From assembly GCF_003074135.1 (NCBI RefSeq), contig NZ_PPDK01000001.1:3286001-3350000 (forward strand): a stretch of DNA of 64,000 nucleotides, in the 5' to 3' direction. Source of the stretch: Euzebya tangerina (lineage in GTDB: Bacteria > Actinomycetota > Nitriliruptoria > Euzebyales > Euzebyaceae). Shown one piece after another: positions 30,959-35,149 of this stretch; position 1 is the first letter of the stretch, and every line of letters starts with the position of its first letter. A program made the position numbers and the translations under genes. The notes under the pieces were generated by a model. That model saw only the letters and a program-made list of their open reading frames with translations, ran no database searches and was not told the origin of the DNA.

Positions 30959-30967
30959 TGGATGGGC

Positions 30968-32053
30968 ATGGCCAACCCACTTGACGCAACCGCACCCGAC
31001 GCCGTCCTCCAGACCTTCCCGCTGAACGGGCAAGGGCCGTGGCCGACGGTGGACCCGTTCCTCTTCTGCGTCCACCACGACGACGACTATCCCGAGGGCG
31101 ACGAGGAACTCGGCCCCTGTGCGCCGCTCGTCGGCCGCAACATCGGGATGGACTTCTCGGGTGCCGATGGGTGGTCGATGTACCACGGCTCCCTGGTTCC
31201 CGGGTTCCCCCAGCACCCGCACCGCGGGTTCGAGACGATCTCGTTCATGCGCAACGGGTTCATGGACCACTCCGACTCGCTGGGCGCCGCAGCACGGTTC
31301 GGCCGTGGTGACGTCCAGTGGATGACAGCCGGATCCGGGATCGTCCACGCCGAGATGTTCCCGCTGCTGAACAGCCAGGAGCGCAACGCGACCGAGCTGT
31401 TCCAGATATGGATCAACCTGCCGGCCAGCGACAAGATGGTGCCGCCGCACTTCTCGATGCTGTGGGATCACGAGATCCCCAAGCACACCCTGCTGGACGG
31501 GACGGGACGACCGGTCGACATCACCGTCGTGGCCGGTCAGTTGGTCGAGGGGCACGCTCCCGCCACTCCCCCGCCCCACTCCTACGCCTCCCGCGCGGAC
31601 GCTGACGTCCACATCTGGCACGCCGGGTTCGCCGAGGGGGCATCATGGCAGCCGCCGGTGGCGGCACACCCGGACACGCGGCGGGTCGTCTACGTCTTCG
31701 GTGACGGCGTGGTGCGCATCAACGGGCAGGAGCTCACCGGCGGCAACGGTGCTGTGATCCGCTGTGATGTCCCGGTGACGATCACCGACGACACGCCGGG
31801 GGCTGCGCTCACCGATGACGGGCATGCAGCTGAGGTGCTCATCCTGGGTGGACGCCCGATCGACGAACCCATCGTCCAGTACGGCCCCTTCGTGATGAAC
31901 ACCAAGGCCGAGATCGCCAAGGCCTACGACGACTACTCCGAGACCGGCTTCGGCGGGTGGCCGTGGGCGGCCGCCGACCCCAACCACGGTCACGAGGTCA
32001 AGCGGTTCGCCAAGCACGCCGACGGCCGGGTGGAGGAACTCGCCGCCACCTGA
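30968..32053 (+). CDS. Pirin-like cupin protein
   Basis: A 361-residue pirin with two cupin domains. The N-terminal domain carries the metal-binding HPHRGFET segment (His83, His85) and a second GIVHAEM motif (about 125-131). The C-terminal cupin and the family-typical WPWAAADPNHG tail are present. Pirins bind Fe and can act as quercetinases or transcription cofactors; the role here is unknown. The start is taken as 30968 (MANPLD); the frame opens at 30962. Divergent from the quinone oxidoreductase. Confidence 0.9.
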   Translation: MANPLDATAPDAVLQTFPLNGQGPWPTVDPFLFCVHHDDDYPEGDEELGPCAPLVGRNIGMDFSGADGWSMYHGSLVPGFPQHPHRGFETISFMRNGFMDHSDSLGAAARFGRGDVQWMTAGSGIVHAEMFPLLNSQERNATELFQIWINLPASDKMVPPHFSMLWDHEIPKHTLLDGTGRPVDITVVAGQLVEGHAPATPPPHSYASRADADVHIWHAGFAEGASWQPPVAAHPDTRRVVYVFGDGVVRINGQELTGGNGAVIRCDVPVTITDDTPGAALTDDGHAAEVLILGGRPIDEPIVQYGPFVMNTKAEIAKAYDDYSETGFGGWPWAAADPNHGHEVKRFAKHADGRVEELAAT

Positions 32054-32105: not shown

Positions 32106-32369
32106 ATGAGGATCACCATCACCTACTGCGTTCCCTGAGACTACTCATCGCACGCCGTGCGCGTGACCAACGAGTTGCTCAGCAACTACCAGCATGTGAT
32201 CGATGAGCTGACCCTCATCACGGGGGACCGCGGGGTGTTCGATGTCGCCGTGGGCGGCACCCTCATGTACTCCAAGGGCCAGACCGGCCGCCAGGCGCGT
32301 GAGGGCGAGGTCCTCGAGGCCCTTGAAGCGGTGCTACCGGACGGGACGCGGCGCTACGGCTCCTCGTAG
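32106..32369 (+). CDS. SelW/Rdx-family selenoprotein with in-frame TGA as selenocysteine
   Basis: Read through an in-frame TGA (32136-32138), this encodes 87 residues with the thioredoxin-like CxxU motif Cys8-Val-Pro-Sec11 in ITYCVPU. The rest fits the SelT/SelW/SelH (Rdx) fold: DYSSHAVRVTNELL helix, GDRGVFDVAVGG strand-turn, SKGQTGR loop and a final helix. Homologs with CVPC in the same place are common, so the TGA replaces the second Cys. Such proteins are thiol redox factors. A conventional caller would start at the GTG at 32157 and lose the redox motif. A hairpin after the TGA could be the SECIS. SelA/B/C/D are not in the window. Sequencing error is the main alternative. Confidence 0.8.
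32145..32166 (+). promoter_or_regulatory. Candidate bacterial SECIS hairpin immediately downstream of the TGA
   Basis: CGCAC (32149-32153) pairs with GTGCG (32157-32161) around the loop GCC. An outer TCA/TGA stem (32145-32147 with 32164-32166) encloses a bulged T at 32148. The loop begins 15 nt after the TGA, starts with G, and the bulged U is six nt before that G, close to what I recall of the E. coli fdhF element. This is a hand fold; energy was not computed. Confidence 0.5.
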
Positions 32370-32455
32370 TACCCCTAGTGGTCCGTAGGTCCCCAGGTGG
32401 TTCGTGGTCCCCCTGGTGGTCCGTAGGTCCCCAGGTGGTTCGTGGTCCCCCTGGT
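32361..32455. repeat. 19-bp tandem repeat block (4 clear units plus one diverged unit) beginning at the SelW-like stop codon
   Basis: Units alternate GGTCCGTAGGTCCCCAGGT (32380, 32418) and GGTTCGTGGTCCCCCTGGT (32399, 32437), which makes an exact 38-bp duplication. A diverged unit at 32361-32379 contains the TAG stop (32367-32369) of the SelW-like gene. The next 19 nt fit only weakly. The block carries no ORF that I would support. Confidence 0.9.
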
Positions 32456-32494
32456 CGTCCACAGTCGGTCCAGGTTTGGCCCACTCAGTCAAGC

Positions 32495-32540: not shown

Positions 32541-33467
32541 TCAGGCCGCCAGCCGATAGGGCCCATCGGGACGGGACAGCTGCTGGCGTTCCAGGTGGAG
32601 TTGGCGCAGCCGCTCCACGCGCTTGGCCGTCGTGGGGTGGGTGCGCAGCCACTCCGCCGGCATCGACCGACGTGGGTGCGCCGCCTCCCAGGCAGCGCCG
32701 GCGTGCTGGTCCAGCACGTTCAGGGCCTGTGCCAACCCCTCGGCATCGTTGGTGAGCGCCACAGCATCCGCATCCGCCTGGTACTCACGGGACCGGCTGA
32801 GGGCCAGCAGCAGGAGCGTGGCAAGGCTCGGGGCCCACAGCACGGCCAGGATCGTCAGCGTCGAGAACCCTCCACCGATGGCACCCGGCCCGAACAGCAG
32901 CAGTCCGATCGTGCCGATCGTCGTCAGGGACTGGGTGCCGCGCGCCAGGACGTGAGCCACCCGCATGATGCGGAGGTCCCCGGCGGCGATGTGACTGATC
33001 TCATGCGCCATCACGCCGGCCAGTTGGCGTCGGTCGAGCGCGCGGAGTAGCCCGGGGGAGATCGCCACGACACCGTCGTCGTCACGACCACTGGCCAGGG
33101 CATTCAGCATCCGGTCCGGTAGAAGGGCGAGTGCCGGCCTGCCGCGAAGCCCGGCGCGGGAGGCGAGCCCCTGCACGAGCGTGTGCAGATCCGGCGCCTC
33201 CCAGTAGCCGAGCGGCCGAGCCCCCAGGGCACGGATGACCGCGCGGCCCGAGGTGTGGCCACCGGACCGGGTCGCCCCCCAGACCGCACCGCCGATCATC
33301 AGCAGACCGAGCGGTCCGAACAGGACCACGGCCGTGATGGCAGCCACCAATCCGATGGTGGCCACAACTGCAACGCTGGCCATCAGCGTCGTCGGCCGAC
33401 GGTGAATCACTGGCTGAAGTCGGGTCACGTTCTCATCTTGAGCGGATGCCTGCCCGGCTACACCCAT
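32541..33467 (-). CDS. M48-family (HtpX-like) membrane metalloprotease
   Basis: A 308-residue zinc protease. Two N-terminal membrane spans (about 30-62) precede the catalytic HEISH motif (His155-Glu156-His159), with the third ligand Glu in SREYQADADA after two further hydrophobic segments (about 178-215). HtpX-type proteases degrade damaged or misassembled membrane proteins from the cytoplasmic face. The ATG at 33467 is the track start; an in-frame GTG 13 residues later is an alternative. It lies upstream on the same strand as nothing closely linked; the flotillin gene starts the next block. Confidence 0.88.
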   Translation of the reverse strand: MGVAGQASAQDENVTRLQPVIHRRPTTLMASVAVVATIGLVAAITAVVLFGPLGLLMIGGAVWGATRSGGHTSGRAVIRALGARPLGYWEAPDLHTLVQGLASRAGLRGRPALALLPDRMLNALASGRDDDGVVAISPGLLRALDRRQLAGVMAHEISHIAAGDLRIMRVAHVLARGTQSLTTIGTIGLLLFGPGAIGGGFSTLTILAVLWAPSLATLLLLALSRSREYQADADAVALTNDAEGLAQALNVLDQHAGAAWEAAHPRRSMPAEWLRTHPTTAKRVERLRQLHLERQQLSRPDGPYRLAA

Positions 33468-33523: not shown

Positions 33524-33565
33524 GTCGCCTGCTCCGAGTCGCCTGCTCCGAGTCGTCTACTCCGT
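33524..33565. repeat. 14-bp tandem repeat (3 units) across the flotillin stop codon
   Basis: Units GTCGCCTGCTCCGA at 33524 and 33538 are identical; GTCGTCTACTCCGT at 33552 is the diverged third, and it holds the flotillin stop (minus-strand TAG at 33557-33559). The two identical copies lie downstream of the stop, as expected if the gene end was duplicated outward. Confidence 0.9.
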
Positions 33566-35149
33566 GTCGTCGGGGCTGTGGTCGGAGATGCGGGTCACGG
33601 TGGAGTCCTCGTCGTACCCCTCGGGGTCGGCGACGGCCACGCCACGGAATCCGCTAGTCGGCGAGACGGCCGTCTCCTGCTCCGAACCAAGCCGGGACAG
33701 CAATCCGCGCAGGTCGATGCCGGTCAACGACGACCCGATCGCCAGGCCCTGCTCGACGTTGGTCGCCACGTTGCCAATCAACTTCGACGCCCCGTCCGTC
33801 GAGACCACGGTGAGGTCCTTGATGTTGCCCATCGGCTCACTGGCGGCCCGAACCAGTTCGGGGAGGATGCTGGTCAGCAGCTCCATGACCGCGGCTTCGT
33901 TGTAGTGCTGGAACGCTTCGGCGTTCTTCTGCCGCGCTTCGGCCTCGGCCTCACCACGTGCCAGGATTGCGGCCGCTTCGGCCGCTCCCTCAGCCTCCAC
34001 CGCGCTCGCGATGGCCTCGCGACGTGATCGCTCGGCAAACCCTCGCTTCTCACCCTCGATCGCCTCGGCCTCGGCCAGTGCCGACCGTCGGGACTTCTCG
34101 GCCTCACCTGACAGGCGGGCGGTCTCGGCCTCGGCCTGCGCCTTGGCGATCTGCGCCTGCTGGCGGGCCTCCGCCTCGCGGATGGCGGCCGACTTGCGAC
34201 CCTCGGCCTCCTGCTCGACGCGGTAGCGATCGGCGTCGGCGGGCTTGCGGATCTCGGTGTCGAGCTCACGCTCCTTCAGGGCGGCGCGGCGCTCCGCCAC
34301 CTGCTCCTGGGCGGTCAGGACGTCCTGGTCCTTGGCGGCCTGCGCGATCGGCCCCGCTGCACGGGCGTCAGCCTCGGCGGCGTCGGTCTCCGCCTGGATC
34401 TCCGCCTTCTTCAGCGCCAAGGTGCGGTTGGCGATGGCGATCTGCTCTTCGGCCTGCAGGCGCTCCTCCTCCGCGGCCTGCCGCGCGCGGGCCTCGGCGA
34501 TGGCCGCCTCCTTCTCGACCCGGGCGGCCTCCGGGCGGCCCAGGTCCTTCAGGTACTCCCCCTCCGCTCGGATGTCCTGCAACTGGAAGGTATCGAGGGC
34601 CAGCCCCTGGTTCGTGAGCGAGGTCTCGGCCTCCTCGGCGACGGCCGAGGCGAAGGCCGCACGGTCGCGGATGATCGTCTCCACGGTCAGTCGACCCACG
34701 ATGGCGCGGAGCGATCCGGCGAGCACCTCCTGGGTGAACACCTCGATGCCGTCCTGCTGGTTCAAGAAGCGCTGGGCTGCGGCACGGATGGCGTCTTCGG
34801 TGCCACCCACCTTCACGATGGCCACCCCCTCCAGATCGACCTTGATGCCCTGGGCGCTGATGCCACCGTTGATGCCGACCGGGATACGACGGCTGGACAG
34901 GTCGAGGGCGTGCAGCTTCTGCACCACCGGGAGGACGAAGGTGCTGGCACCGATGATGACCCGTTGGCCGGACAGGTCGTGCGTCGACTCCCCGGTCTCG
35001 GGATTGATCACCGGTCCACGGTTGCCCTTCCGTCCGGTGATGATGAACGCCTGGTTGGGCCCGGCCACGCGGTAGCGGCTGGACACGGCGGCCACCAAGA
35101 GGACGAGGAGGACGACGAGGGCGCCGCCACCGGCGAGGAGGGTGTTCAC
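33557..35149 (-). CDS. Flotillin-like SPFH/Band 7 protein (FloT/YuaG type)
   Basis: A 530-residue flotillin. A membrane hairpin or anchor at residues 5-22 is followed by the SPFH domain (about 25-200). Then comes a long coiled-coil region (about 210-430) with the repeated Ala-Glu-rich pattern seen in flotillins, and a conserved ending with LPELVRAASEPMGNIKDLTVVS. It organises membrane microdomains. It lies 42 bp after the NfeD-like gene on the same strand, the usual pairing. The stop codon sits in a 14-bp tandem repeat. Confidence 0.93.
   Translation of the reverse strand: MNTLLAGGGALVVLLVLLVAAVSSRYRVAGPNQAFIITGRKGNRGPVINPETGESTHDLSGQRVIIGASTFVLPVVQKLHALDLSSRRIPVGINGGISAQGIKVDLEGVAIVKVGGTEDAIRAAAQRFLNQQDGIEVFTQEVLAGSLRAIVGRLTVETIIRDRAAFASAVAEEAETSLTNQGLALDTFQLQDIRAEGEYLKDLGRPEAARVEKEAAIAEARARQAAEEERLQAEEQIAIANRTLALKKAEIQAETDAAEADARAAGPIAQAAKDQDVLTAQEQVAERRAALKERELDTEIRKPADADRYRVEQEAEGRKSAAIREAEARQQAQIAKAQAEAETARLSGEAEKSRRSALAEAEAIEGEKRGFAERSRREAIASAVEAEGAAEAAAILARGEAEAEARQKNAEAFQHYNEAAVMELLTSILPELVRAASEPMGNIKDLTVVSTDGASKLIGNVATNVEQGLAIGSSLTGIDLRGLLSRLGSEQETAVSPTSGFRGVAVADPEGYDEDSTVTRISDHSPDDTE

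Follow-up and report, generated by a model that had tools for sequence, protein, structure and literature searches.

Does the in-frame TGA in a short reading frame of Euzebya tangerina end translation, or does it encode selenocysteine in the active site of a SelW-like protein? The frame lies on the plus strand of the window, i.e. the 64,000-nucleotide stretch of DNA analysed here, and runs from an ATG at 32106 to a TAG at 32367-32369, with a TGA at 32136-32138 as its sole interruption. Read through this codon, the gene (selW/rdx, 32106-32369) yields an 87-residue product, MRITITYCVP-U-DYSSHAVRV..., in which a CVPU motif would place selenocysteine at residue 11. An earlier note, made from the sequence alone, had proposed a SelW/Rdx-family selenoprotein at this locus, and its positions for the ATG, TGA, GTG and TAG proved exact when checked in the sequence. 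It had also pointed out that gene calling from the GTG at 32157 would remove the active site. A 70-residue reading frame with this GTG start (32157-32369, plus strand) is indeed present and contains neither the first strand nor CVPU; a gene finder using table 11 could call it in place of the full gene. The upstream neighbour is a pirin-family gene (30962-32053, plus strand; Pfam Pirin 85.5 bits, Pirin_C 63.9 bits). From the end of selW, a 38-nt tandem unit with 2.6 copies, 93% matches and a sub-period of 19 extends over 32364-32460.

The readthrough product belongs to the SelW/Rdx family, scoring above the curated cut-offs of both Pfam Rdx (PF10262, 58.9 bits, cut-off 22.6) and TIGR02174 (43.5 bits, cut-off 34.2). 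It reaches 69 bits against the Campylobacter-type equivalog NF041051, whose cut-off is 88, and is therefore not filed under that model. With a profile built from 118 relatives, the window left out, we searched all six reading frames of the window, treating TGA as a sense codon. The selW locus is the only match (82.8 bits, E 1.8e-25), which excludes chance. In a search of the whole genome selW is the only Rdx gene recovered, reported with one TGA inside it, and a search of plasmid proteins gave distant Rdx matches only, none of which covers 80% of the query. In the family alignment the TGA coincides with the second residue of the CxxC/CxxU motif, in agreement with the earlier note, at a column where Cys and TGA alternate. 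Bacteria are already known to have SelW-like selenoproteins (PMC1088965, PMC1794560), and this family ranked first in abundance among the selenoproteins of the 2005 Sargasso Sea set (PMC1088965). Like the known bacterial members of PF10262/TIGR02174, the window protein has a CxxU motif after the first strand, a length of about 87 residues, a thioredoxin-like fold, a second redox position encoded by UGA and a putative SECIS in the coding region, but it differs from them in combining CVPU with a CGUGC-loop hairpin instead of GGUCU. This copy is absent from the papers that we found on bacterial SelW-like selenoproteins, and our literature search returned no paper joining Nitriliruptor with selenocysteine or Euzebya with a selenoprotein.

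An AlphaFold2 (AF2) model of SelW (pLDDT 95.5, pTM 0.84) adopts the SelW-type thioredoxin-like fold, with CVPU at residues 8-11 between strand E2-8 and helix H14-28. The model superimposes best on two SelW-related structures, the crystal structure 2fa8 (Z 14.2, 85 residues aligned, rmsd 2.0) and 3dex from Streptomyces (Z about 14, 79 residues, rmsd 1.4), followed by mouse SelW 2npb (Z 9.0, 80 residues aligned, rmsd 2.7) and ordinary thioredoxins (Z about 7). From its motif and predicted fold, SelW would most likely act as a small thiol-selenol oxidoreductase, with Cys8 and Sec11 as its redox residues. SelW has been reported to interact with glutathione (PMC1088965).

The TGA is widely shared among relatives. 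An Rdx gene is present in 15 of the 66 genomes of the class, and in 14 of these 15 the corresponding codon is TGA; the remaining one (L032) has TGT, giving CVPC, and thus provides the Cys-type counterpart that the earlier note had suggested for comparison. All 14 TGA genomes encode a SelB scoring over the cut-off or a strong tRNA-Sec, compared with 36 of the 52 other genomes of the class (Fisher p 0.015). For selB alone the numbers are 13/14 and 23/52 (p 0.002). Two TGA genomes are partial cases: G060, which is 71% complete, has no selB, and G054 has no tRNA-Sec. Many further TGA homologues were obtained from a phylum-wide draw of 396 genomes, while Cys homologues were found in Chloroflexota, Demequina and haloarchaea when GTDB contigs were scanned with the Cys-coding pattern. 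Two members of one family (L161 and L166, family f6) are of the Cys type, and the other fetched members of that family have TGA. The stem and the GGUCU loop described below are gone from both, and judged by their sequences they look like cases of Sec-to-Cys replacement.

Is the organism equipped to read UGA as selenocysteine? Its genome assembly (4.78 Mb, 12 contigs, 98% complete) encodes SelB (289 bits, or 323 with neighbouring pieces; cut-off 242) with the SelB-specific beta-barrel and C-terminal winged-helix domains, SelA (426 bits, cut-off 268) and SelD (380 bits, cut-off 125). A tRNA-Sec gene scores 65.9 bits (gathering score 47), and ARAGORN identifies the same gene as tRNA-SeC with anticodon TCA. 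The selB and selA genes are about 2 kb from each other, and the same contig also carries selC and selD at other sites. Since all four components are present, the absence of selB and tRNA-Sec, which the earlier note had named as grounds for abandoning its reading, does not apply. Outside the window, an FdhA homologue (G000:C2:218837-220723) contains an in-frame TGA in the context SCNRT-U-HAPSVVGL, the usual selenocysteine site of formate dehydrogenase, followed by a GGUCU-loop hairpin at +19. By its sequence, FdhA is a second predicted selenoprotein of this genome. With in-frame TGA codons in selW and fdhA alike, at least two genes of the organism appear to depend on UGA recoding. Together with the full Sec gene set, this supports the reading of the locus given in the earlier note.

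We then asked whether the selW mRNA carries a signal for SelB. Downstream of the TGA, positions 32151-32165 (plus strand) can form a putative bacterial SECIS hairpin, CACGC-CGUGC-GCGUG, with the CGUGC loop at 32156-32160; the loop starts at +18 after the UGA and the spacing is 17 nt. The E. coli fdhF SECIS is a hairpin directly 3' of the UGA with GU in a small apical loop. The window hairpin is similar in both respects but differs in its loop and stem sequences, and a bulged U is not established for it. Published limits for bacterial SECIS elements (bSECIS) are a loop of 3-9 nt, a stem of 4-16 bp, a G in the first two loop positions, a spacing of 16-37 nt and an MFE of at most -7.5 kcal/mol (PMC13188914). 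The window hairpin lies within these limits with its 5-nt loop, 5-bp stem, loop G and 17-nt spacing; the folded segment has -10.6 kcal/mol and the 15-nt hairpin by itself -5.5, so that only the longer segment reaches the energy limit. The other members of the class have a different element, in which GCC-GUC or GCC is followed by GGUCU and then by GACGGC or GGCGGC; the stem of this hairpin has 5-7 bp, and the loop begins 22 nt past the TGA. This GGUCU block is absent from the window selW.

Taken by itself the window hairpin is not significant, as a 5-bp stem is reached by 24% of synonymous shuffles. The case for this individual hairpin is therefore made through its group. Likewise, single-sequence folds give z values near -0.2 to -0.4, no excess over shuffles, and for this reason we use only group evidence for the SECIS. 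No Rfam family matched the window at gathering scores, so the hairpin stands without Rfam support. A hairpin with a CGUGN loop occurs at the corresponding position in nine further homologues. Across these ten sequences 91.7% of cells are paired, and three of the six pairs are changed on both sides (C-G to U-A, G-C to A-U and C-G to U-A); in shuffles the mean of such two-sided changes is 1.0, and three are reached in 9 of 500. When the partner is slid by 1-3 columns pairing falls to 12-70%. Under synonymous codon shuffling the ten sequences show a mean stem of 5.7 bp compared to a null mean of 1.6 and a maximum of 3.7; for the remaining 25 genes with TGA, almost all of which have a GGUCU loop, the mean is 5.8 compared to 0.4. 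Over 119 homologues, the median stem of an NGUNN hairpin is 6 bp in the 35 with TGA and 0 in the 84 with Cys, a contrast that is inflated, with too small a p-value, by kinship among the Cys homologues, many of which are from Demequina and SAR202. The TGA homologues of the phylum have a hairpin 17-21 nt past the TGA that fits the published bSECIS model, whereas the Cys homologues mostly do not.

Based on the reading frame, family, predicted fold, machinery, UGA conservation and group-level hairpin, we infer selenocysteine insertion, SelB binding to the hairpin at 32151-32165 and a redox function. It is nearly certain, in our view, that the product of selW is a bacterial selenoprotein of SelW type within the Rdx family, that its active site is Cys8-Val-Pro-Sec11 and that the UGA is read as selenocysteine by means of SelB and the hairpin. 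In this mechanism SelA and SelD would charge tRNA-Sec(UCA), and SelB bound to the mRNA hairpin would bring the charged tRNA to the ribosome. The UGA at 32136-32138 would then be decoded as selenocysteine and the ribosome would go on to the TAG at 32367. The product would adopt the thioredoxin-like fold, with the CxxU motif between the first strand and the first helix serving as a selenenylsulfide/dithiol site.

The TGA could instead be a true stop, as it normally is in table 11, leaving either a pseudogene (a decayed Cys-type Rdx gene) or only the 70-residue protein that the downstream in-frame GTG allows; that the window hairpin on its own is not significant would fit this as well. We consider it very improbable, because the only interruption sits exactly at the Sec/Cys column of a frame that is otherwise intact and conserved, and differences to the approximately 60% identical relative L143 cluster at third codon positions (15/15/30). 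In addition, many relatives keep the TGA, all of the Sec machinery is present, and the shortened frame would lack the first strand and active site.

Even less credit is due to a sequencing or assembly error that turned TGC or TGT into TGA. While a single base separates these codons, independently sequenced relatives in the class and phylum have TGA at the same codon, which makes an error unlikely, and the hairpin adjoins the TGA in a genome with Sec machinery. Equally remote is readthrough by another route, such as near-cognate Trp or Cys insertion or SelB-independent suppression, leaving a residue other than selenocysteine. Near-cognate tRNAs are known in general to read UGA, and the hairpin is weak in the window gene alone, but tRNA-Sec (UCA), SelA, SelB and SelD are all present and TGA at the redox position is known to specify selenocysteine in the Rdx/SelW family.

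The window selW is closer to genes of other families of the phylum than to those of its own genus. Protein identity is 60% to both L143 and L144, which come from such other families, and only 44% and 41% to the genus-mates L019 and L020. More generally, the SelW-like genes of the genus and class (L019-L031) share with it the TGA at the same codon, a CVPU or CNVU motif and the Sec machinery, but are only 31-49% identical, have the GGUCU loop from +22 and fall into another tree group. The SelW-like genes of other actinobacterial families (L143-L148) resemble it at about 50-60% identity, with CVPU-[DN]Y and a CGUGN loop from +18, although they belong to other families of the phylum and no pirin gene was found in their flanks of about 1.5 kb. 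In a tree of 63 columns with few resolved forks, the window SelW lies outside its own class, in a group of ten (support 97/85) that also contains the sequences of L143-L148 type and three Cys-type proteins from Chloroflexota.

Three congeners have conserved the upstream pirin gene, at 76-80% identity, but have no selW after it. In this empty-site comparison the M48 peptidase gene that comes after selW in the window was not found in the flank either, so that the exact insertion point cannot be placed. In the window, the M48-family peptidase gene (32544-33467, minus strand, 104.6 bits) and a Band 7/flotillin gene (33560-35149, minus strand, 87 bits) are convergent with selW; M48-like peptidases also occur near selW in L150, L161, L166 and L167. 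The simplest reading of these sequence comparisons is that the gene was probably gained, or replaced, horizontally from another actinobacterial lineage; the alternative origin is an ancient paralogue with losses. As the FdhA loop (GGUCU) differs from that of selW, the SelB of this genome would have to read both. We give an even chance to the fuller proposal that actinobacterial SelW has two SECIS types (GGUCU at +22, CGUGN at +18), of which this genome gained the second horizontally while FdhA keeps GGUCU, with one SelB reading both, perhaps with differing efficiency.

Bacterial SelW-like selenoproteins have been known since 2005 or earlier, so the selW finding as such is expected biology. The surprise is a modest one; what adds interest is that there is a second type of hairpin and that the gene was likely transferred. 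Beyond the first reading of the locus, the analysis brings in the SECIS-like hairpin, FdhA and the divergence of selW from the genes of its genus-mates. It also corrects an annotation, since a standard call would lose the SelW active site. This actinobacterial class appears to decode UGA as selenocysteine in at least two proteins, SelW and FdhA, and two hairpin types within one family, next to Cys homologues that mostly lack them, form a natural test set for SelB recognition outside E. coli.
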